A DNA stretch of 15,879 bases from Planctomycetota bacterium (GTDB taxonomy: Bacteria; Planctomycetota; Planctomycetia; Pirellulales; Pirellulaceae): positions 1 through 15,879 of the forward strand of contig JAPLNJ010000374.1 in assembly GCA_026692885.1 (NCBI GenBank), in the 5' to 3' direction. Each line of letters begins with the position of its first letter. Positions within the stretch are counted from its first letter, which is position 1. The position numbers were made by a program, and so were the translations under genes. This document shows, in pieces, positions 4,754-15,879 of the stretch. The notes below the pieces were generated by a model. It had not been told where the DNA came from and made no database searches. It saw only the letters and a list, made by a program, of their open reading frames with translations.

Positions 4754-4943
4754 CGCCGCGCGGAACAAGAGTACCCGTGGGCCGGATTTGTAAGCCGACC
4801 TGGACGGTTTGAAGAACCATCTTACGGCTGCTTGTCTTGGGTCGATACCGCTCACGCAAACGTGAGGCTCCACGGGGCAAGCCGGGGACATCCTGTCGGC
4901 CGGACCGCAGAATCTCTTTCTTGACGCGTAAGGGCCAAGCACC

Positions 4944-4965
4944 CGTTTGGTGCTAGCACCAAACG
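4944..4965. terminator. Perfect 22-bp palindrome, possible terminator
   Basis: CGTTTGGTGCTAGCACCAAACG-type palindrome, self-complementary over all 22 positions with core GGTGCTAGCACC, followed by ATATTTT. GGGCCAA (4932-4938) and TTGGCCC (4971-4977) form an outer pair of complementary arms. The hairpin plus T-rich tail could end transcription of the CapD-like gene, 190 bp upstream. The intervening 4754-4943 holds no gene, only a 6-bp hairpin CTCACG-CAAA-CGTGAG at 4851-4866. A palindrome this perfect could also be a dimeric protein binding site. GCTAGCAC recurs at the inner edges of both large palindromic elements. Confidence 0.5.
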
Positions 4966-4981
4966 ATATTTTGGCCCCTGT

Positions 4982-5204
4982 GCGCAAAGCATGAGACTTA
5001 GCGGTTCAGCAGAGACGGGGTGTGAGACAAAGGGGTCAGACGTACAGATTTCAGTTTTCGCGGTCGTGTGCCCAAGCCTAGGGAAAGCCTGCTGCCCGCG
5101 AAAACTGAAATCTGTACGTCTGACCCCAGCTGGCGGTCCGTCTCTGCGAAACCGTAGGACCCCATGCTTGACACCGCCAACCCCGAAAACCGTTTCATGC
5201 TAGC
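4982..5204 (+). repeat. Palindromic element, copy 1 (32-bp perfect stem)
   Basis: A stem with arms 5032-5063 and 5096-5127 is exactly complementary over 32 bases (left arm begins GGGGTCAGACGTACAG and ends TTTTCGCGG) around a 32-nt loop. Similarity to the reverse complement of 10043-10265 covers the stem (identical), the loop (29 of 32 by eye) and both flanks (roughly 70-80%), out to GCGCAAAG on the left and GCTAGC on the right. No coding capacity is credible. It resembles REP-like or MITE-like palindromes moved in trans; GGGGTCAGAC ends remind me of repeats linked to RAYT/IS200-type transposases, which is an association only. It could also act as a bidirectional terminator. Confidence 0.85.
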
Positions 5205-5271
5205 ACCATGCGCCGCCATGACTTCCCGATCATTCTGCACCAGCGGGAGGGCTTTGGTGCGGCAGTCTGTC

Positions 5272-5301
5272 TTGACCTGGCAACGGCAAACCGCCTACGA
5301 T
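5272..5301 (+). promoter_or_regulatory. Promoter-like pair upstream of the GT39-like gene
   Basis: TTGACC (5272-5277) and TACGAT (5296-5301) are 18 nt apart, matching consensus at 5/6 and 4/6 positions. It lies just outside the inner edge of the palindromic element. If used, transcription would begin near 5308, which argues against translation from the ATG at 5300 (inside the -10 box) and for the GTG at 5357. Confidence 0.4.
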
Positions 5302-5356
5302 GGCTCGCTTTCATGCGCGGAGCGCAGGTGCTTTTCCAAGGGATTGGATACTCGCC

Positions 5357-6745
5357 GTGGATCGCCGACTGGTTGCCCTCATCCTGTTCATCGCTTGCGC
5401 GGTCCGTCTGGCCGCGGGGTGCTGGTGGCAACAGCAGCTACCGCCGGGCAAACGTTTTGGCTTTCCGGACAGCGAGGCGTATTGGCACCTGGCGCAGACC
5501 CTCGTCCGCGGCCAGCCGTTCCAAATGAACCCGGATCGGCGGGTGTTTCGCACGCCCGGCTACCCGGCGACATTAGCCAGCCTATTTCTCCTGGTGGGAG
5601 ATGATCCACCGGTCGTGTGGGCTCGAGCCTTAAACGCCCTCTTGGGCACGTTGGCCGTGGGCGGTGTCATGGGTTTGGCCTACTCCTTGTTCGATCGTCG
5701 CGCGGCGCTCCTGGCTGGACTTGCGGCGGCGGTCTGCCCGGAATCGATTGCGACCGGTGTCTTCGTATTGTCCGAGGCGCCGTTTTGTCCTCTGCTGCTG
5801 CTCCAACTCGTCCTGGGGACGTGGGCCTGGAAGTCGCGGGCGGCACCGCAGGCCGCCGGTTGGGCGACGGTCAGCGGCGTGGCGGCCGGACTGGCGACGC
5901 TGCTGCGCCCTAGTTGGCTGCTGTTCACGCCGTTCGCCCTGGCCGTGGCTTGGTTCGTGCGCCCTGGACGTACACAGCCTCCGGCCTGCCCCTTTCCCGG
6001 TGGCCGCAGATACACGCTGGTGAGTCTCTGCATGCTGCTGGGTCTGGTGACCGCAATGTCGCCCTGGTGGATTCGCAACTGGCGTGTCACGGGGAGCTTC
6101 GTGCCCACGACGCTCCAGGTTGGTGAAAGCCTGTACGACGGCTGGAACCCGCACGCCAACGGCGGCAGCGACATGCGGTTCGTGGATGAATTCCGGCAGC
6201 AATTGCGGACCGAAGATGCCCAGCGCGGTGCTACGTCGGAGGAATTGGCGACCTTCGAATCGCGGCTGGACCGGCGCATGTGGGACGCCGCCTTGGCTTG
6301 GGCCCAGGGCCAGCCGCGCCGGGTGGCCGAACTGGCCGTGGTCAAATTCCTGCGGATCTGGAACGTGTGGCCCAACGAACCCGGCTTGCAAAGTCCGTTG
6401 GTGCGAGTGGCCGTGCTGTGTGGGTATGCCCCCGTCTTGGTGTTCAGTGTGATCGGCGCGTGGAAGTTCGCCGGCCGGGGGTGGCCGTATCTGCTGTGCG
6501 GCTTGCCGGCCGTGTATTTTACGGCGTTGCACATGGTCTTTGTCGGTTCGTTGCGGTATCGGCAACCCGCCCTGCTGCCGCTGATCGTGCTGGCGGCGGG
6601 TGCCGCCTGGGAACTTGTTGTCAGAGGTGGCCTGCGTTCCCCAGCTCCCGTGGAGGATTCCCCTCGCCCAGGTATTCCGGGGAGCGAGGCCGGGGGTGAG
6701 GGGGTTTCATCCGCTTTCGGACTTAGCCCGTGCTTACATGCCTGA
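5357..6745 (+). CDS. GT39-like (PMT/ArnT-type) membrane glycosyltransferase
   Basis: Polytopic membrane protein of the GT-C fold. Family members transfer a sugar from a polyprenyl-phosphate donor to protein or lipid on the periplasmic face. From the GTG at 5357 it has 462 residues. A first membrane helix (about 4-21) is followed by FPDSEAYWHLAQ, whose Asp (D38) sits where GT39 enzymes keep the first-loop catalytic Asp. RTPGYP (65-70) is a common family motif. Hydrophobic helices follow to about residue 230, then MSPWWIRNWRVTGSFVPTT, a soluble segment, and further C-terminal helices. An ATG at 5300 would add 19 residues, but that stretch uses codons rare here (ATA, AGG) and overlaps a -10-like box. 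The last ~30 residues come from a GC-rich inverted repeat. It overlaps the AsmA-like gene by 8 nt. Donor and acceptor are unknown. Confidence 0.8.
   Translation: MDRRLVALILFIACAVRLAAGCWWQQQLPPGKRFGFPDSEAYWHLAQTLVRGQPFQMNPDRRVFRTPGYPATLASLFLLVGDDPPVVWARALNALLGTLAVGGVMGLAYSLFDRRAALLAGLAAAVCPESIATGVFVLSEAPFCPLLLLQLVLGTWAWKSRAAPQAAGWATVSGVAAGLATLLRPSWLLFTPFALAVAWFVRPGRTQPPACPFPGGRRYTLVSLCMLLGLVTAMSPWWIRNWRVTGSFVPTTLQVGESLYDGWNPHANGGSDMRFVDEFRQQLRTEDAQRGATSEELATFESRLDRRMWDAALAWAQGQPRRVAELAVVKFLRIWNVWPNEPGLQSPLVRVAVLCGYAPVLVFSVIGAWKFAGRGWPYLLCGLPAVYFTALHMVFVGSLRYRQPALLPLIVLAAGAAWELVVRGGLRSPAPVEDSPRPGIPGSEAGGEGVSSAFGLSPCLHA
6660..6703. repeat. GC-rich inverted repeat inside the end of the GT39-like gene
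   Basis: CCCCTCGCCC (6660-6669) pairs with GGGTGAGGGG (6694-6703), with one G-T pair, around GGGGAGCGAGGCCGG-type sequence. Similar CCCTCGCCC...GGGTGAGGG palindromes are common intergenic repeats in many bacteria, from general knowledge. Here it is translated as the low-complexity tail PRPGIPGSEAGGEG, suggesting a repeat inserted near the stop and extended the reading frame. Confidence 0.6.
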
Positions 6746-9700
6746 ACACCGGCTGGGAGTCTATGCCCGCTTCAACACTTGGGTCCGCAGGCTCTGCCTG
6801 GCGGCCATCCTGGTGGTCTGCGCGCTGCTGATCGGCCGGCAGGTGATCGGGAGAAAAGTCGATGACGAGATTCGCTCCGAAATTGCGTCTCGCTTCGCCC
6901 GCCACTACCCAGAGCACGTCGTCCGTGTGCGCGACGCGCGCTTGCTGGAAGGCCGGGGGATCGAAATCCATGGGATCTCGATCAGCCAGCGGAGCAGCGG
7001 CAAGAAGCTGGTGGAGATCGATGACATCTTTGCCACTTGCGCGATCAAGCTCGAGGACTTGCTGGCCTCACAGTCGCCGCGGGCAGAGCAGCTGACCATC
7101 CGGGGACTGAAGGTCTGGGCGAAACAGCAGGCAGATGGGTCGTGGAACGTGCAGCAACTCTGGCCGTTGCCGAGCTTCGGCAGCGGACATCCGCCCGTCC
7201 TGCTCCGAGACGGCACGGTGGAGTTGTCGCTGAACGACGGAGGCCGGCCGTCTTCCTGGAACTTGCGTAAGATCCAGCTGTCCGTCCTGACCGAGCCGGG
7301 ACGCAGGCTGCCCGATCCCGGCGCGCCGCCGTCGGCGGTCATCGAACCGGGAAACCAACGCACGCATCGGCCGCTCCCAGCCGCGCCGCAACCCGCGTTG
7401 CTGGTGCAGGGAACCCTGGAGGGCGATCACTTTCAGAGTGTCGACCTCAAGGCCCACTTCCACCCGCAGAACCAGGCCTGGAACGCGACCGGTGAACTAA
7501 AGGGCCTCCAGTTATCGCCCCAGTTGTTGGCGACGTTGCCCGCGACCTGGCAGGCGAAGTTGGGTCCCGCAGCCGCCGTCCGCGGCCAATTGAAGCTCGA
7601 TTTTCGAGTGGCCAGTCCGCCGACCGCCAACCAGCCGATCCAATTCACGGTCACGGGGGCGCTGACAGAAGGCGAGATCGTCGACGCTCGACTGCCCTAC
7701 CGCCTGCACGATGTCGCGGGCCAATTTTTCTGCGACAATCAGCGTCTGAGCATCGCAGAACTCACGGCGCGCAGCGGCCGGTCCACCTGGCGTTTGTCGC
7801 TCGATCGGGCCGGTCTGGAAGCCGGCCGCCCCCTGTCGTTGCGAGTGCAAGCGAAGCAGTTGGTCTTGGACGGCAGCATCGTCGAATGCCTGCCGGCTGA
7901 CGCGAAAGTGCTGTGGCGGAAGTACTTCCCGGCGGGTCTCGTCAATGCCGACGTGCGTCTGGTCTTCGACGGGGAACGCTGGCGGCCCGAGTTTGACGTC
8001 GAATGCCTTGACGTGGCATTCGAGTACTACAAGTTCCCGTATCGTGTCGAGGGCACCCGCGGCACCGTCCGACTGCAGGGCAATCGCCTGCAACTGCAGC
8101 TGGCCACGCTGGCCAACGGCCAAGTGGCCCACGTCAACGGCGAGTTCGAAAATCCAGGCGAGCAGCACACCGGCTGGCTCGAGGTGTCGTGCGACGGGCC
8201 GATTCCGATCGACGAAAAGCTGCTGTCGGCCATTGTCGATCCGCCGCAAGCCCAACCCATCGTGCGCGCGCTGCATCCGGGCGGCATGCTGACGTTCAAC
8301 GCCCGGTTCGTTCGCCGGACGCCGGGTGGGCCGCTCGAACGGAAGTGTACGCTCGACGTGAAACACGGCACGCTGCAGTACGACAAGTTCCCCTATCCGT
8401 TGAACTCGATCCAAGGCACCATGGACTGGGACAATACCGGCTGGACGTTCCGGCACTTGAGCGGCCGCAATAACAGCGGCTACATCGAATGCGAGGGCAC
8501 TTGGAAAACAAGCGGGCCCACGGCCGGCCAATTGGTGCTGAATATGACCGGCGCCGAGGTGCCCTTGGAAGACGCCTTGCGGGATGCGCTCAGCCCGGGC
8601 GCGAAGCGACTGTGGGGCGATTTGCGGCCCCGCGGGTCGGTCGATAGTCTTAAGGTCGACTTGCGCTACCACACGGCTTCGGCCCAGTTGGACCTGGACG
8701 TGTGGGCGCAGAAACTGCGCGGGCCCGGCGATGAGGGCTACAAAATCTCGCTGCAGCCGGTGTGGTTTCCGTATCGCCTGGAGGACGTCGTCGGCACGGT
8801 GCACTACCGCAACGGCCAAGTCACGCTGCAGAACATCTCCGCCGTCCATAATGATACCGAGATCAGCGTCGAGGGCGGCTGTGACTTCGACCGCAGCGGC
8901 GACTGGACTATCCGCCTGAATAAGCTGATGGCCGATCGGTTGCTGTTCGACCGCGATTTCTTGACGGCCCTGCCGCCCAGCTTGGGAAAAGCCATCACGA
9001 AGTTGAATCTGCAAGGTGCGGTCAATGTGCAGGGGTCGCTGGCGCTGGGCGGCGTCGCCCGCACGGAGGGCCGGCCGGCGGCGCGCTGGGACTTCCTGGT
9101 CGACGTCGAAAACGGCGGCCTGCGCAGCGGTCTGCCGCTGGAACATATCCACGGCGACGTACGCTTGTTCGGCGAGAGCGATCAGGACAGTTTCTACAGC
9201 CGGGGCGAATTGAACTTGGATTCCGTGGTCTACAAGGACGTCCAACTGACGCAAGTCCGCGGGCCGCTGTGGATCGATGCGAACCGTCTGGTGTTCGGCG
9301 CCGAAGCGGAACGCGGACGGAAGGACCAGCCGCCCCGCCCCCTGACGGCCAATGTCTTCGGCGGCATCCTCTCGGCGGATGCCAGTCTGGAGTTCGACGG
9401 CGACCTGCCGTTTCGGGTGCAGGCCCGCCTGGAACGCGGCGACCTGACCCAGATCGCCCGAGAGCTGGCCTGGAAGAACCAGAATATCGGCGGCAAAGCC
9501 AACGCACTGCTGAACCTTACCGGAACGCCGCAGGGCCCCCATTCGTGGCGCGGCAGCGGCTTCGTGCGGCTGTTTGAAGCCGACATCTACGAGGTCCCCG
9601 TCATGCTGGGACTGCTCAAGATCCTCAGCGTTCGCCGGCCGGATACGACTGCCTTCACCAGCAGCGACATCGATTACCACATCCAAGGCGAAGATGTGTA

Positions 9701-10046
9701 TCTGGATCGCATCAACTTCAACGGCGATGTGATCAGCCTCAAGGGCCGCGGCGAGCTGAACCTGGACCGCCAGATCGCCCTGACCTTCTATACGCTGGTC
9801 GGACACGGCGAACTCCGGCCGGCGGCCCTCCGCGCGATCTTGCGGACCGCTAGCAAGCAGATGCTGCTGATCCGCGTCACCGGCTCGCTGGATGAACCCC
9901 AGATGACCCGCGAGCCGCTGCCGATGCTGAAAGAAACGCTGGACCAAATCTTCCCGGAACTGGCCAACCGCCCACTTCCCACCCGCCTGCCGCCGACGAC
10001 TGCGACGGAGCCTGTCCGTCGCAACGGCCACACGCCGACGCGCTAG
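6738..10046 (+). CDS. AsmA/TamB-like membrane-anchored protein (1102 aa)
   Basis: One N-terminal membrane anchor (about residues 17-35) followed by over 1000 residues of predicted periplasmic beta-rich sequence. The C-terminus (LNLDRQIALTFYTLVG ... LLIRVTGSLDEPQM) is the hallmark of AsmA-like C-terminal domains. Relatives (AsmA, TamB, YhdP) are bridge-like lipid-transport or outer-membrane assembly proteins. An internal motif [FL]PYR[LV]xxVxGTV recurs at residues 319, 433, 551 and 677, with a weaker form at 799, a period of 114-126 residues. That fits repeating beta-groove modules. The ATG at 6738 overlaps the preceding stop (ATGCCTGA), suggesting translational coupling; no clear Shine-Dalgarno is seen. 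Its own TAG stop lies in GCTAGC, the first bases of palindromic element copy 2. Lipid transport is inferred from the family; no cargo can be assigned. Confidence 0.85.
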   Translation: MPEHRLGVYARFNTWVRRLCLAAILVVCALLIGRQVIGRKVDDEIRSEIASRFARHYPEHVVRVRDARLLEGRGIEIHGISISQRSSGKKLVEIDDIFATCAIKLEDLLASQSPRAEQLTIRGLKVWAKQQADGSWNVQQLWPLPSFGSGHPPVLLRDGTVELSLNDGGRPSSWNLRKIQLSVLTEPGRRLPDPGAPPSAVIEPGNQRTHRPLPAAPQPALLVQGTLEGDHFQSVDLKAHFHPQNQAWNATGELKGLQLSPQLLATLPATWQAKLGPAAAVRGQLKLDFRVASPPTANQPIQFTVTGALTEGEIVDARLPYRLHDVAGQFFCDNQRLSIAELTARSGRSTWRLSLDRAGLEAGRPLSLRVQAKQLVLDGSIVECLPADAKVLWRKYFPAGLVNADVRLVFDGERWRPEFDVECLDVAFEYYKFPYRVEGTRGTVRLQGNRLQLQLATLANGQVAHVNGEFENPGEQHTGWLEVSCDGPIPIDEKLLSAIVDPPQAQPIVRALHPGGMLTFNARFVRRTPGGPLERKCTLDVKHGTLQYDKFPYPLNSIQGTMDWDNTGWTFRHLSGRNNSGYIECEGTWKTSGPTAGQLVLNMTGAEVPLEDALRDALSPGAKRLWGDLRPRGSVDSLKVDLRYHTASAQLDLDVWAQKLRGPGDEGYKISLQPVWFPYRLEDVVGTVHYRNGQVTLQNISAVHNDTEISVEGGCDFDRSGDWTIRLNKLMADRLLFDRDFLTALPPSLGKAITKLNLQGAVNVQGSLALGGVARTEGRPAARWDFLVDVENGGLRSGLPLEHIHGDVRLFGESDQDSFYSRGELNLDSVVYKDVQLTQVRGPLWIDANRLVFGAEAERGRKDQPPRPLTANVFGGILSADASLEFDGDLPFRVQARLERGDLTQIARELAWKNQNIGGKANALLNLTGTPQGPHSWRGSGFVRLFEADIYEVPVMLGLLKILSVRRPDTTAFTSSDIDYHIQGEDVYLDRINFNGDVISLKGRGELNLDRQIALTFYTLVGHGELRPAALRAILRTASKQMLLIRVTGSLDEPQMTREPLPMLKETLDQIFPELANRPLPTRLPPTTATEPVRRNGHTPTR

Positions 10047-10265
10047 CACGAAACGGTGTTGCAGGGTTGTCCGTGTCAAGAATGGGGCTTTATGGTTTCG
10101 CCGAGAAGGAACGCGCGCCTGGGGTCAGACGTACAGATTTCAGTTTTCGCGGGCAGAAGGCTTTCCGTATGCTTGGGCACACGACCGCGAAAACTGAAAT
10201 CTGTACGTCTGACCCCTTGTCTGGCGCCCCGTCCTGGCTGAACCGTTAAGTCTCATTCTTTACGC
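10043..10265 (-). repeat. Palindromic element, copy 2 (inverted relative to copy 1)
   Basis: Arms 10121-10152 and 10185-10216 are the same perfect 32-bp stem as copy 1, with a 32-nt loop. Because the loop and flanks match copy 1 only as reverse complement, the copy lies in opposite orientation. The outer edge, TCTCATTCTTTACGC (10251-10265), matches GCGCAAAGCATGAGA of copy 1. The inner edge GCTAGC overlaps the AsmA-like stop codon. It lies 57 bp before the promoter-like sequence of dapF and probably stops transcription into dapF. Confidence 0.85.
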
Positions 10266-10319
10266 GAATTACCCGAAGAACTGTGGGGTGCTAGAGACGG
10301 GGAGGTACGCGACGTGGCC

Positions 10320-12172: not shown

Positions 12173-12222
12173 GGGCCTTGATCAGAACGTTGCGCATCGT
12201 AAGCGCGAAGCGTCAGCGAGGA
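12173..12222 (+). repeat. Mosaic repeat: GATCAGAACGTTGCGCA joined to GAAGCGTCAGCGAGG
   Basis: Bases 12173-12196 (GGGCCTTGATCAGAACG then TTGCGCA) match the terminal repeat at 13121-13144 with about three mismatches. They are followed by TCGTAAGCGCGAAGCGTCAGCGAGG-type sequence, matching the arm at 109-132. The same two modules occur in the same order, inverted, at 115-214, where 15-20 extra bases separate them. This shows modular repeats that recombine or insert as blocks. Confidence 0.65.
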
Positions 12223-12227
12223 ACAGG

Positions 12228-12365
12228 GGCGATTTGGAGTGCGGCGGCTTGACGCCGCATGCGTGTCGCTTTCACATTCTCGGTGTGCGCTGCATGCCGG
12301 GCCAGCCTTTATTTCAAAGAAAGGCAGAGCCAAAGCGGTGTCGAGCCACCGCACTCCAAATCGCC
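12228..12365. repeat. 138-bp element with 31-bp terminal inverted repeats
   Basis: GGCGATTTGGAGTGCGG (12228-12244) is exactly complementary to 12349-12365. Allowing three mismatches the arms extend to 31 bp (12228-12258 and 12335-12365). Inside lies a smaller hairpin (GCCTTT...AAAGGC, 12305-12325 region). TTTGGAGTGCGGCGGCTTGACGCCGC-type sequences are familiar to me as abundant intergenic repeats of planctomycetes and their relatives. The size and terminal repeats fit a MITE-like element. Confidence 0.75.
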
Positions 12366-12415: not shown

Positions 12416-12474
12416 CCCGAAGCTTCCGCGAGGGAACTAAATCCCCTCCCCCCGCCCCGCGCTGACGCTTCGGG
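12416..12474. repeat. Imperfect inverted repeat of the GAAGCGTCAGCG family
   Basis: CCCGAAGC (12416-12423) is complementary to GCTTCGGG (12467-12474). The pairing extends to 20 positions with four mismatches (12416-12435 against 12455-12474). The right arm reads CGCGCTGACGCTTCGGG, related to the arms at 109-175 but diverged. The loop is pyrimidine-rich (CCCCTCCCCCCGCCCC region). Confidence 0.6.
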
Positions 12475-12491
12475 CTACTAGGAAAAACAGC

Positions 12492-12669: not shown

Positions 12670-13260
12670 ATGCAGCAGCGGATCAATGACTTGATGATCG
12701 AGGCTCGCCGCGAAGGAATGAACCCGCGGGTGGCGAGTGGAACAGGCTATTGCAGCCCCGCCGAGCAACATCGGCTGTACTTGCTGAATAATGGCACCAC
12801 GAACGCCGAAGCGTGGCAATCGAATCACCAGTATGGTGTGGCCGTTGACATCGCCATGATGACCCGTGACGGTAGCGCACAGACCGCGGCATCAGATCCC
12901 AATCGGGCTCGGCTCGGCGCTCTCGGAGGCGTGTTTCAGCTCGAATGGGGCGACCACGGGTACGTCGATATTCCCCATTTCCGATGGCCTGGACTTCCGA
13001 CATGGCAGGATCTGCAGACGGCTTACGCTCGCGGAGCCGGCGTTCGCGTGGACCAGTTGACCGCGACCATCACCATTCCTGACGGGAATGGAATGCAGGA
13101 GGTGTGGAGATTCGTCGGAGCGGCCTTGATCATAACGTTGCGCAAAACGCTAGCAGCAAGAGGTCAGGGTGGCTGGGGCAGAGTGCAGCGATGCCCCAGA
13201 AACCGGGTACTGGGGCTTCGCTTAGGCTCAGCCGCCAGCCACCCGGGCTGCTGGCACTGA
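12670..13260 (+). CDS. M15-family peptidase (D,D- or L,D-type), probably degenerate
   Basis: Zinc peptidase of the VanY/CwlK/phage-endolysin type that cleaves peptidoglycan peptides. The zinc ligands are present: H53 and D60 in NHQYGVAVDIA, and H103 in DIPHFRWPG, with D100 in the usual DxxH position. LEWG (91-94) also fits. Signs of decay: the family's SGYRS motif reads SGTGYCSP, losing the Arg; no RBS precedes ATG 12670; and in-frame coding-like sequence upstream (LVEGGTTVLQFQTAHPEN, then TAG at 12646, then ASYVAPQ) suggests the start was lost. From residue 151 the frame runs into the repeat element at 13121, so the last 46 residues are repeat-derived. No signal peptide is seen. It may be a chromosomal cell-wall enzyme or prophage remnant; activity is doubtful. 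Confidence 0.6.
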   Translation: MQQRINDLMIEARREGMNPRVASGTGYCSPAEQHRLYLLNNGTTNAEAWQSNHQYGVAVDIAMMTRDGSAQTAASDPNRARLGALGGVFQLEWGDHGYVDIPHFRWPGLPTWQDLQTAYARGAGVRVDQLTATITIPDGNGMQEVWRFVGAALIITLRKTLAARGQGGWGRVQRCPRNRVLGLRLGSAASHPGCWH

Positions 13261-13435: not shown

Positions 13436-15879
13436 TTATGCCCTGGCGACCTCAGCGGCGATCGCGGAAATTGCTTGCTCCAATTCCGTCGTCTCGGCAG
13501 GCATGTCCACGAAGTCATCCGGAGATGGAGATTTCGTCGGGCGACAAAGTGTAGGGGAAATGAGGAACTTGGTGGATACGCCATCTTGTCGATGCGTTCG
13601 TAACCGTACTTGCGGGGACGCCGTGATGGTCGACCGTTGCTCAGTTAGACCGCGCGGAATCAGGCATTGGGCACCTGCAGTCTGCGCGAGCGGGTCCCCT
13701 CGACCATATTTCGGATGACTTGACGAAATGGATTCGATGAATGCTGCGTCCCGGGTCTGAAGCCGTAGGACGACGTCAGGCGGTTCGGTGAACTCTCCCT
13801 CGCCGCCGGACACCGTTGGAAACAGTCCCGCTCCAAACCTGTTGATGTAGTTGATGACAATCAAGACATCGGTCGGGGTAAGCTGGCCATCCCCGCTCGG
13901 ATCCAAGAACGGCGGCGGAGCTGGCGTGGGATATGAAGCAGTCGCTAAGTCCCTGGAACTGCTGGTATTGATGTCGCTAATCAGAGTGAGCACATCGATG
14001 GCCGTGATGTATCCATCGCCCGTGACGTCGCACGGGTGACGTGGGTTCTGCCAAGTCGGCCCAACGACCAGAGTAGTCCAGGCATCGCTGGCATCGCCCC
14101 CCAAGGCGTTACCGCCGACATCCTGAATGCCAGATCCTCCGGCCGTCAGCTGCAGCTCGTAACTGCCCGACACCCCCGTCAGGCCCGACAAGTTCCCCAG
14201 CGTCCACGTGAGGCTGTCGCTAGTGGTCAGCGTCTGGGCACCGGTGAGCAGGTTGCTGCCCCCATCGCGAGTCAACGCCACGTCGGCCAGGTCGAAGCCG
14301 CCGACCGCTTCGCTGAACACGATCTGGATGGACGTTACCGCCGTGTTCCGCGGATCTGGAGTCACGTCCACGATATCCACCGTCGGCGACGTGTCGTCAT
14401 CGTTCGTCGTGACCGACACCGTCTGGTCCGCCAGCGGGCGAAAGACGCTGTCCGAGCTGGCGTCCACCACCGACACCGTCACCAAGCTGCCCACCGCTCC
14501 GTCCACGATCGAATCGTCCACCGCCGTGATCGTCACCGTCTGCGTCGTGTTCCAGTTGGCCGGCGTGAACGTCAGCGTAGCCTTGTCCACCGTGGCTTCC
14601 GTCGCGTCGCTGGCCAGCACCGAGAACACCACGTCCGCAAGCGGCTGCCGCGTCAGTACCACCGTGAACGTATCCGTCGTGTTCGGCTCCGTCACCGTCG
14701 CCGTGGTCTTCGACAGCGTAAAGCCCGGCACGTCGTCGTCATTCGTCGTCACGACCACCGTCTGGTCCTCCGTCCCGTCGCTGGCCAGCGCCGAGAACAC
14801 CACGTCCGAGAGTGGCTGCCGCGTCAGCACCACCGCGAACGTGTCCGTCGTGTTCGGCTCCGTCACCGTCGCCGTGGTCTTCGACAGCGTAAAGCCCGGC
14901 ACGTCGTCGTCATTCGTCGTCACCGAAACCGTCTGGTCCGGCAGATCGCGAAAGGCGTTGTCCGAGCTGGCAGCCACCACGAACACCGTCACCAAGCTGC
15001 CCACCGCTCCGTCCACGGTCGAATCGTCCACCGCCGTGATCGTCACCGTCTGCGCTGTGTTCCAGTCGGCTGGCCTGAACGTCAGCAGGGCCTTGTCCAC
15101 CGTCGCTTCCGTGGCATCGCTCGCCGTCACGGAGAACACCACATTCGTGAGCGGCTGCCGCGTCAGCACCACCGTGAACGTGGCCGTCCCGGTCGGCTCC
15201 CAGACGTCGGCGGTCGCTCTTGACAGCGCGAACCCCGGCGTGTCGTCGTCATACGTCGTCACCCACACGATTCGATCCGCCATGACGTTCCAAGCCTCGT
15301 CAGAATCGGGGCCCACAACCGACAGGGTCACCGTGCTCATCACAGCACCATCCCCCGTGAGATCGTCCACCGCCGCGATCGTCACCGTCTGTGCCAGGTT
15401 CCAGTCGCTTGACGTAAATCTCAGCGTGGCCTTGTCCACCGTCGTCTCCGTCGCATCGCTGGCCGTCACCAAGATCACCACGTCCGCCAACGGCCGTCTC
15501 GCTAGCACGACCGTAAACGTGTCCTTCGTGTTGGGTTCCATCACACCTACCGTCGTCGTCGATAGAGTCAACCCCGGCAGATCGTTGTCGGTCGTCACCA
15601 CGCTCACCGTTTGGTTCGGCAAGGCGTCCCAGGCGTCGTCCGACTTGGCCGCGTCCACCGCGAGCGTGATCAGCGTCGTCTGGTTCCCGTCCACGATTAG
15701 GTCATCCACGCCGGTCACCGTGACTGTCTGCGCCTGGCTCCAGTTGGACGGTGTAAAGGTCAGCGTGGCCTTGTCCACCGTGGCCTCGCCTGGGTCACTA
15801 CTGCTCACCGCGAGCACGACGTTGGACAACGGCTGCCGGTTCAAGACCACCGCGAAGGTGTCCGTCGTACCCGCTTCGG
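13436..15879 (-). CDS. Large secreted Calx-beta-like repeat protein with C-terminal dockerin-type EF-hands (5' end outside window)
   Basis: The minus-strand frame is open through 15879, so only the C-terminal ~813 residues are seen. First come tandem ~113-residue beta-sandwich repeats with signatures FTVVLTRQPLADVVFSV, ATLTFTPANWNTTQTVTI and VDDSIVDG, ending TTNDDD; they resemble Calx-beta or related extracellular domains, and the Asp clusters suggest calcium binding. An Ig-like domain follows (VDIVDVTPDPRNTAVTSI ... LQLTAGGSGIQDVGGNAL). Then come two dockerin-type EF-hands, DVTGDGYITAIDVLTLI (about 13985-14034) and DPSGDGQLTPTDVLIVI (about 13855-13907). The tail of ~120 residues ends AISAIAAEVARA. 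This architecture is common in planctomycete surface proteins; there the EF-hands are not known to mean a cellulosome. One repeat is only 57 residues. Ligand and anchoring are unknown. Confidence 0.85.
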   Translation of the reverse strand, partial: EAGTTDTFAVVLNRQPLSNVVLAVSSSDPGEATVDKATLTFTPSNWSQAQTVTVTGVDDLIVDGNQTTLITLAVDAAKSDDAWDALPNQTVSVVTTDNDLPGLTLSTTTVGVMEPNTKDTFTVVLARRPLADVVILVTASDATETTVDKATLRFTSSDWNLAQTVTIAAVDDLTGDGAVMSTVTLSVVGPDSDEAWNVMADRIVWVTTYDDDTPGFALSRATADVWEPTGTATFTVVLTRQPLTNVVFSVTASDATEATVDKALLTFRPADWNTAQTVTITAVDDSTVDGAVGSLVTVFVVAASSDNAFRDLPDQTVSVTTNDDDVPGFTLSKTTATVTEPNTTDTFAVVLTRQPLSDVVFSALASDGTEDQTVVVTTNDDDVPGFTLSKTTATVTEPNTTDTFTVVLTRQPLADVVFSVLASDATEATVDKATLTFTPANWNTTQTVTITAVDDSIVDGAVGSLVTVSVVDASSDSVFRPLADQTVSVTTNDDDTSPTVDIVDVTPDPRNTAVTSIQIVFSEAVGGFDLADVALTRDGGSNLLTGAQTLTTSDSLTWTLGNLSGLTGVSGSYELQLTAGGSGIQDVGGNALGGDASDAWTTLVVGPTWQNPRHPCDVTGDGYITAIDVLTLISDINTSSSRDLATASYPTPAPPPFLDPSGDGQLTPTDVLIVINYINRFGAGLFPTVSGGEGEFTEPPDVVLRLQTRDAAFIESISSSHPKYGRGDPLAQTAGAQCLIPRGLTEQRSTITASPQVRLRTHRQDGVSTKFLISPTLCRPTKSPSPDDFVDMPAETTELEQAISAIAAEVARA
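14398..15879 (-). repeat. In-gene tandem repeat array, 339-bp period with one 171-bp unit
   Basis: The DDDxPGF-encoding junction recurs with start points 15572, 15233, 14894 and 14723, giving spacings of 339, 339 and 171 bp, with a last full unit ending near 14398. The short unit lacks 168 bp in frame (junction near 14768, ASDGTE joined to DQTVVV). Bases 14673-14752 and 14844-14923 are identical over 80 bp, so at least one duplication or conversion is recent. Confidence 0.85.

Follow-up and report, generated by a model that had tools for sequence, protein, structure and literature searches.

Composite palindromic elements, one hairpin centred in another, on either side of a GT39-AsmA gene pair in a planctomycete contig

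Two inverted copies of a palindromic element lie on either side of a GT39-like glycosyltransferase gene and an AsmA-like gene in contig JAPLNJ010000374.1 of a Planctomycetota bacterium (15,879 nt, analysed over its whole length and called the window below). The hairpin stem at the centre of the element is perfect and identical in both copies, while the surrounding sequence has diverged. This raises the question of what kind of element it is and how its centre came to be better conserved than its sides. Our best explanation, to which we give a probability of roughly 0.78, is that both copies are composite mobile palindromes of a non-autonomous kind, in which a dimer of Y1-type repeats (the core) sits inside a separate element whose inverted arms end in CTAGCACCAAACGG.

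Each window copy is built of two layers, a 96-bp core inside an outer inverted-arm element, one palindrome being centred in another. The initial annotation had described an element of ~223 bp; the repeat is real, but its outer side had been clipped, and the units measured between their CTAG ends are 251 and 252 bp long. These limits (4953-5203 and 10043-10294) were chosen because CTAG stands at both ends of both copies and each whole unit folds as a single hairpin. The parts are the following:

4953..5203, + strand: composite palindromic element, copy 1 (251 bp, CTAG to CTAG), folding end to end as one hairpin
10043..10294, - strand: composite palindromic element, copy 2 (252 bp, CTAG to CTAG), orientation opposite to copy 1
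5032..5127, + strand: core of copy 1, in which GGGGTCAG repeats form an inverted dimer of 96 bp (stem 32, loop 32, stem 32)
10121..10216, - strand: core of copy 2, dimeric as in copy 1 and likewise 96 bp long
4953..5031, + strand: left outer arm of copy 1, starting with CTAGCACCAAACG
5128..5203, - strand: right outer arm of copy 1
10043..10120, + strand: left outer arm of copy 2
10217..10294, - strand: right outer arm of copy 2
4896..4960, - strand: a fifth outer arm standing alone, which abuts copy 1 back to back; the two have a CTAG palindrome in common

The perfect 32-bp stem and 32-nt loop of the initial annotation were recovered on re-measurement. The stems (5032-5063/5096-5127 in copy 1, 10121-10152/10185-10216 in copy 2) are 100% complementary over 32 nt, and all 64 stem positions are identical between the copies. 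The loops, 32 nt each, differ at three sites (29/32 identical). The arms, 79 and 76 nt long in copy 1 and 78 nt each in copy 2, are identical at 119/160 aligned positions, a level different from that of the core (Fisher p=8e-7). Past the arms, identity drops to 10/20 and 20/53. The inverted match between the copies extends over 100 nt at 97% identity and related copies exist in other genomes, and the repeat is therefore not due to chance. The predicted fold of the stretches containing the whole units reaches -142.3 and -144.3 kcal/mol (RNA parameters). The CTAG at both ends of the outer element is itself palindromic and may be a tag or a target duplication; in the left arm of copy 2 it provides the stop codon of the AsmA gene (TAG, 10044-10046). 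IS5-like elements are reported to duplicate CTAG, and TnpAREP to cut at a CT dinucleotide; both points are background and carry no weight here.

The core belongs to a family that is dispersed among relatives. The genomes searched were 241 family genomes grouped with G001, the genome of locus L003, and an order-level set; G004 (contig L006, Rhodopirellula) was reached separately. Counts from searches in which part of the candidates was scored are lower bounds. BLAST found the core family in 1/8 genomes and in 3/241 family genomes. The covariance-model search of the stem proposed in the initial annotation was run with a model of the core (R1). With 17 candidates scored in each genome, it placed the core in at least 10 of the 241 at E<=0.001. 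At the order level, at least 16 of 396 genomes carry it, mostly as weak matches and with two already among the family results (10 scored each). In genome G011, 40 of the 148 candidates were scored, and the family was present at 39 of these 40 places, with a length of exactly 96 bp in 35/39. From copy to copy, the arms of the G011 cores are 92% alike and the loops 65%. The two arms within one core match at 95.6%, compared with a mean of 92.5% on re-pairing (maximum 93.9% in 2000). Among 19 chosen cores, 11 of the 32 stem pairs changed on both sides, with 98.2% of cells paired, and none of 500 shuffles was as high.

The window cores and most G011 cores start with GGGGTCAG, which places the GGGGWSAS motif at the repeat ends; the G070 variant, GGGCTCAG, is off this motif by one base. 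At G018 locus L271, a core lies inside a perfect short palindrome. An exact 20-mer of the stem had no match in the genome contigs, and neither Rfam at gathering scores nor blastn against plasmids and phages to E 0.01 gave one. Two matches of a stem 16-mer in viral contigs, neither with the surrounding palindrome, were taken as chance.

Judged by sequence, the GGGGTCAG ends of the core are the terminal repeats that adjoin predicted Y1/RAYT-type transposase genes in relatives. The look-up of such genes, also proposed in the initial annotation, was carried out in relatives and gave two Y1 genes with adjoining cores. G004 encodes a protein with a Y1_Tnp domain and a Bac_DnaA_C tail, whose gene is preceded by a core at ~12 bp and followed by a diverged half repeat. 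In G070, a homologous gene, its frame interrupted by one in-frame stop, sits between two complete cores; here only the Y1 part was scored, while in G004 the DnaA_C tail was scored too. Both relatives thus carry a repeat flanking a Y1 transposase of the kind with a helix-turn-helix (HTH)/DnaA_C tail, as in the TIRYT genes. Thirty loci of homologues of the G004 protein were taken, and the five at contig ends were left out. Inward GGG[GC]TCAG motifs stand on both sides within 250 bp at 18 of the 25 testable loci (0/20 at the control distance), and at 24/25 the inverted flanking repeats beat all 20 single-base shuffles. The earlier proposal that a RAYT/IS200-like transposase mobilises a non-autonomous element thus fits the core, whose GGGGTCAG repeats are found at such genes and which such an enzyme would move.

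The outer element consists of inverted arms with CTAGCACCAAACGG ends and occurs in relatives also without the core, either empty or with other central hairpins. An arm model (R2), built with two G011 copies included, matches other genomes, clearly so G004, G011, G070 and G201. The exact 14-mer CTAGCACCAAACGG is present in 10/241 genomes; G002 and G011 have 43 occurrences each, and none of its reversed control. In G002, 29 elements were parsed from 28 hand-chosen loci: 13 have no central hairpin (96-116 bp), 11 have one (139-149 bp), and in the remaining five the central hairpin is interrupted again (214-310 bp). None of the 29 contains the core in its printed sequence. In G002, G064 and G070, other palindromes or unrelated hairpins fill the centre between the same outer ends. 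Four G002 loci (L410, L412, L444 and L448; 307-310 bp) carry palindromes nested at least three layers deep.

A second outer family, GTAGCAACGG..., starting with GTAG, was found in G011, where it also exists without a core. It surrounds 27/33 cores of one subtype and 0/7 of the other, an association whose Fisher p of 9e-5 is too strong because the copies are related. At six further G011 loci (L243, L252-L254, L257 and L258), single GTAG-tagged hairpins are fused to a CACGCTGCTCGCCAGCGTGG-like hairpin, forming another compound repeat.

The composites behave as units and their cores change independently. In G011, 20 regions were taken, mostly chosen as listed inverted pairs, of which 18 could be parsed (all but L395 and L397). 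Fourteen of the 18 measure 221-225 bp, and in 13 the two printed arms differ in length by no more than 3 nt. Cores were compared with arms in fifteen composites, leaving out L394, a duplicate, and L393 and L398, which are truncated; the fifteen cores are oriented one way in ten and the other way in five. In L380 and L391, cores that are 99% identical stand in opposite orientation within arms that are 94% identical. The nesting at the hairpin centre and these cores in both orientations inside near-identical arms are the unusual features of the system. In L392, the core is 93-96% like that of three other copies, with arms only 70-74% alike, so that core and arms disagree much as they do in the window. 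In G011, 47 pairs have an arm identity below 82%; none of them reaches the core identity of the window copies (96.9%), the highest being 95.9%. The initial annotation had read the preservation of the stem over decayed flanks as selection or gene conversion. The conservation is real, but the similar discordance of L392 means that core exchange suffices and that selection on the stem is not needed.

These observations can be joined in a simple scheme. The centre is a 96-bp inverted dimer built from a terminal repeat that goes with Y1 (HUH) transposases of RAYT/TIRYT type, as the repeat family and the two transposase genes next to such dimers show, and the enzyme would move the core. The core probably entered the centre of the outer element, and the composites would then have multiplied as a unit. 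Conversion or re-insertion may also have passed core sequence from one copy to another; this would account for the 97% identity of the cores against 74% for the arms in the window.

Several results weigh against this explanation. The core copy counts and the transposase genes come from the genomes of relatives, not from the host of the window, and the two core-bearing transposase loci (L185 and L187) were picked because a core adjoined them. At 30 Y1 loci scanned, from 53 Y1_Tnp matches in five genomes, the core motif was found at none. With the NCBIfam RAYT model NF047646, the G004 protein (73.5 bits) and the G070 piece (60.3 bits) stay below the cut-off of 80, and the best G011 RAYT found is at a contig edge beside a different GGGGTCAG-type repeat. 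For the outer layer, no autonomous element with the same ends was seen among the matches listed, read by eye, and no arms of the window or G011 type stand beside Y1 genes (63 loci). The window arms resemble G011 flanks moderately, the best z values among 128 flanks being 6.0, 4.1, 3.7 and 3.1, and the second-best match (z 4.1) is not of the CTAG type. Palindromic outer flanks above the 99% null were found at 7/39 cores in G011, 2/9 in G070, 1/8 in G018, 0/2 in G001 and 0/1 in G199, at 0/3 transposase-side cores and at 2/2 window cores; in this flank test, 5/64 cores were dropped as having no clean core. On this test, a general rule that all cores lie in palindromes was dropped. Flanks common with another copy are seen at 28/39 G011, 5/9 G070 and 0/8 G018 cores. 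The distances between G011 cores and those between their arms show a weak correlation (r=0.21, as high in 150/2000 permutations), a value computed before core orientation was corrected.

The window proteins point, by their matches, to a Pirellulaceae-like planctomycete host: those of DapF include a Pirellulaceae protein at 82%, and the nearest contig among the matches listed, L003, stands at 79%. AsmA has a match at 98% (P0001). As the initial annotation had it, the copies face opposite ways with exactly two genes between them, confirmed as GT39-like (PMT_2) and AsmA/YhdP-like:

5300..6745, + strand: GT39/PMT_2-like glycosyltransferase, between the copies and outside the element
6741..10046, + strand: AsmA/YhdP-like protein, between the copies and outside the element; its YhdP match is below the curated cut-off

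A sigma-70-like consensus match lies directly before the GT39 start (5272-5301, + strand; one found, 0.1 expected). The order and orientation GT39-AsmA-DapF-DUF374 are the same in all four fetched relative loci that hold all four genes (L004, L006, L010 and L023). Across 20 relative loci, R1 has just two matches. One, in L006 at 433-513, is more than 4 kb away from GT39; the other, at 14489-14576, is in L019, where GT39 and AsmA were not found. No core stands beside the four genes in any of the 20. The AsmA-DapF gap is 24 bp in L003, the closest relative among the matches listed, and 367 bp in the window, and copy 2 therefore looks like a gain in the window lineage; alternatively, the element may have been lost in L003. 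The copies occupy both gaps flanking GT39-AsmA, and their position on both sides of these envelope genes seems to reflect chance and not a switch.

Three other explanations have to be weighed. The composite could be one single element, a variant of the explanation above, with the core-free and smaller versions arising as deletions by replication slippage across the hairpins. The size classes of G002 are readable as a stepwise collapse, the block by which L409 and L411 differ (116 vs 149 bp) is bounded by a 4-bp direct repeat, as expected of slippage, and core remnants persist in the collapsed G011 copies L338, L342, L255 and L256. We nevertheless consider it unlikely, as a single element does not agree with unrelated hairpins within the same outer ends in three genomes, nor with cores that lack these arms beside transposase genes and in G018.

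The hairpins themselves could have been retained for a role in GT39-AsmA transcription, whether as bidirectional terminators, as insulators or as stabilisers of the mRNA, which would suit their intergenic site, the very stable predicted fold and the perfectly kept stem. A consensus scan, however, gave no T-tailed terminator at either core, and its weak match at the tag palindrome (4944-4965) is within the number expected by chance; the relatives searched, moreover, carry no core beside the GT39-AsmA genes, which makes such a role quite improbable. Least probable by far is the proposal, made in the initial annotation, that the two copies delimit a 5-kb segment, invertible or composite, with GT39-AsmA. 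It is prompted by inverted 100-bp repeats of 97% identity around exactly two genes, but 4/4 relatives, in the absence of the elements, share this gene order, and only one of the two orientations is seen. The core is itself palindromic, which would make opposite orientation nearly a coin toss, and two elements 5 kb apart facing opposite ways would call for no special cause. Since gene order is kept in relatives and the AsmA-DapF gap of L003 is 24 bp, neither an inversion nor a border role is supported.

Other repeats are present in the window. A dispersed repeat around GAAGCGTCAGCGAGG occurs in both orientations (105-137, 152-180, 12195-12228 and 12449-12476) and was not seen in loci L003-L082. 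A third repeat, GGCCTTGATCAKAACGTTGCGCA, has two close copies (12174-12196 and 13122-13144) and is associated with an inverted pair (13121-13176/13235-13290), with a partial relative at 185-217. A further palindromic element may lie at 12228-12258/12335-12365, a 31-nt inverted repeat with 90% complementarity and 76 nt between its halves. The dockerin-bearing protein encoded at 13436-15850 (- strand) has long internal repeats with a spacing of 171/339 nt.

The composite explanation can be extended to 'Russian-doll' palindromes, in which small hairpin elements of various kinds repeatedly enter the exact tip of others and the inner core can flip. The transposase would then work on single-stranded DNA and prefer hairpin loops, or its products would survive best there. 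The centred cores of the window and G011, the other central hairpins (G002, G064 and G070), L271, the L380/L391 flip and the further layer in 5/29 G002 elements are compatible with this extension, which we put forward tentatively and hold to be somewhat doubtful. The family offers a natural system for asking whether single-strand transposases target hairpin tips, and a case where core conservation over decayed flanks can arise from nested mobility and exchange instead of selection.

Bacterial miniature inverted-repeat transposable elements (MITEs) have terminal inverted repeats, no gene, many copies and a near-constant length. The outer element shares the terminal inverted repeats and the many copies of near-constant length (G011 composites, G002 size classes); it differs in that no parent insertion sequence was found for it in listings read by eye. 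REPINs reportedly consist of two inverted short repeats forming one hairpin, present in many copies and linked to a RAYT-type transposase. The core resembles them as an inverted repeat pair forming one multicopy hairpin (cf. Bertels and Rainey 2011, PMC3116915). It lacks a GTAG-tagged short REP (repetitive extragenic palindrome), its arms being 32-bp repeats like terminal inverted repeats (TIRs), and with no GTAG at the core and CTAG on the window arms it falls outside the GTAG superfamily of REPINs. The GTAGCAACGG... outer family of G011 does resemble a GTAG REPIN.

Closer parallels are the TIRYT genes and TIRtrons, where, according to the part of Di Nocera et al. 2013 (PMC3733652) covered here, GGGGWSAS repeats flank Y1 transposase genes. 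Some of these repeats form moderately abundant families, many as dimers or clusters, and hundreds of degenerate REPs adjoin unrelated stem-loops in two Pseudomonas species. The core repeats share the motif and flank Y1 genes in relatives, but their dimer keeps to one 32/32/32 palindromic layout and is often centred in another palindrome. Nesting of this type was not found in that part of the paper, nor was a description of nested REP/TIR palindromes in planctomycetes found among the titles and abstract openings listed in the literature search, which took in few subscription journals and some papers in part. The TnpAREP subclass 2.1 of Quentin et al. 2018 (PMC6006769, in the part covered) comprises long Y1 proteins whose tail is Bac_DnaA_C or another HTH domain, with GGGG[AT][CG]A[CG] flanking repeats. 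The G004-type protein is alike in its domains and flanking repeats, a likeness by description and not by tree placement. Where that part of the 2018 survey reports no REP-like sequence near subclass 2.1 genes, the present palindromes form a dispersed family linked to TIRYT-type genes, and two such genes adjoin hairpin dimers of a kind also dispersed away from genes.

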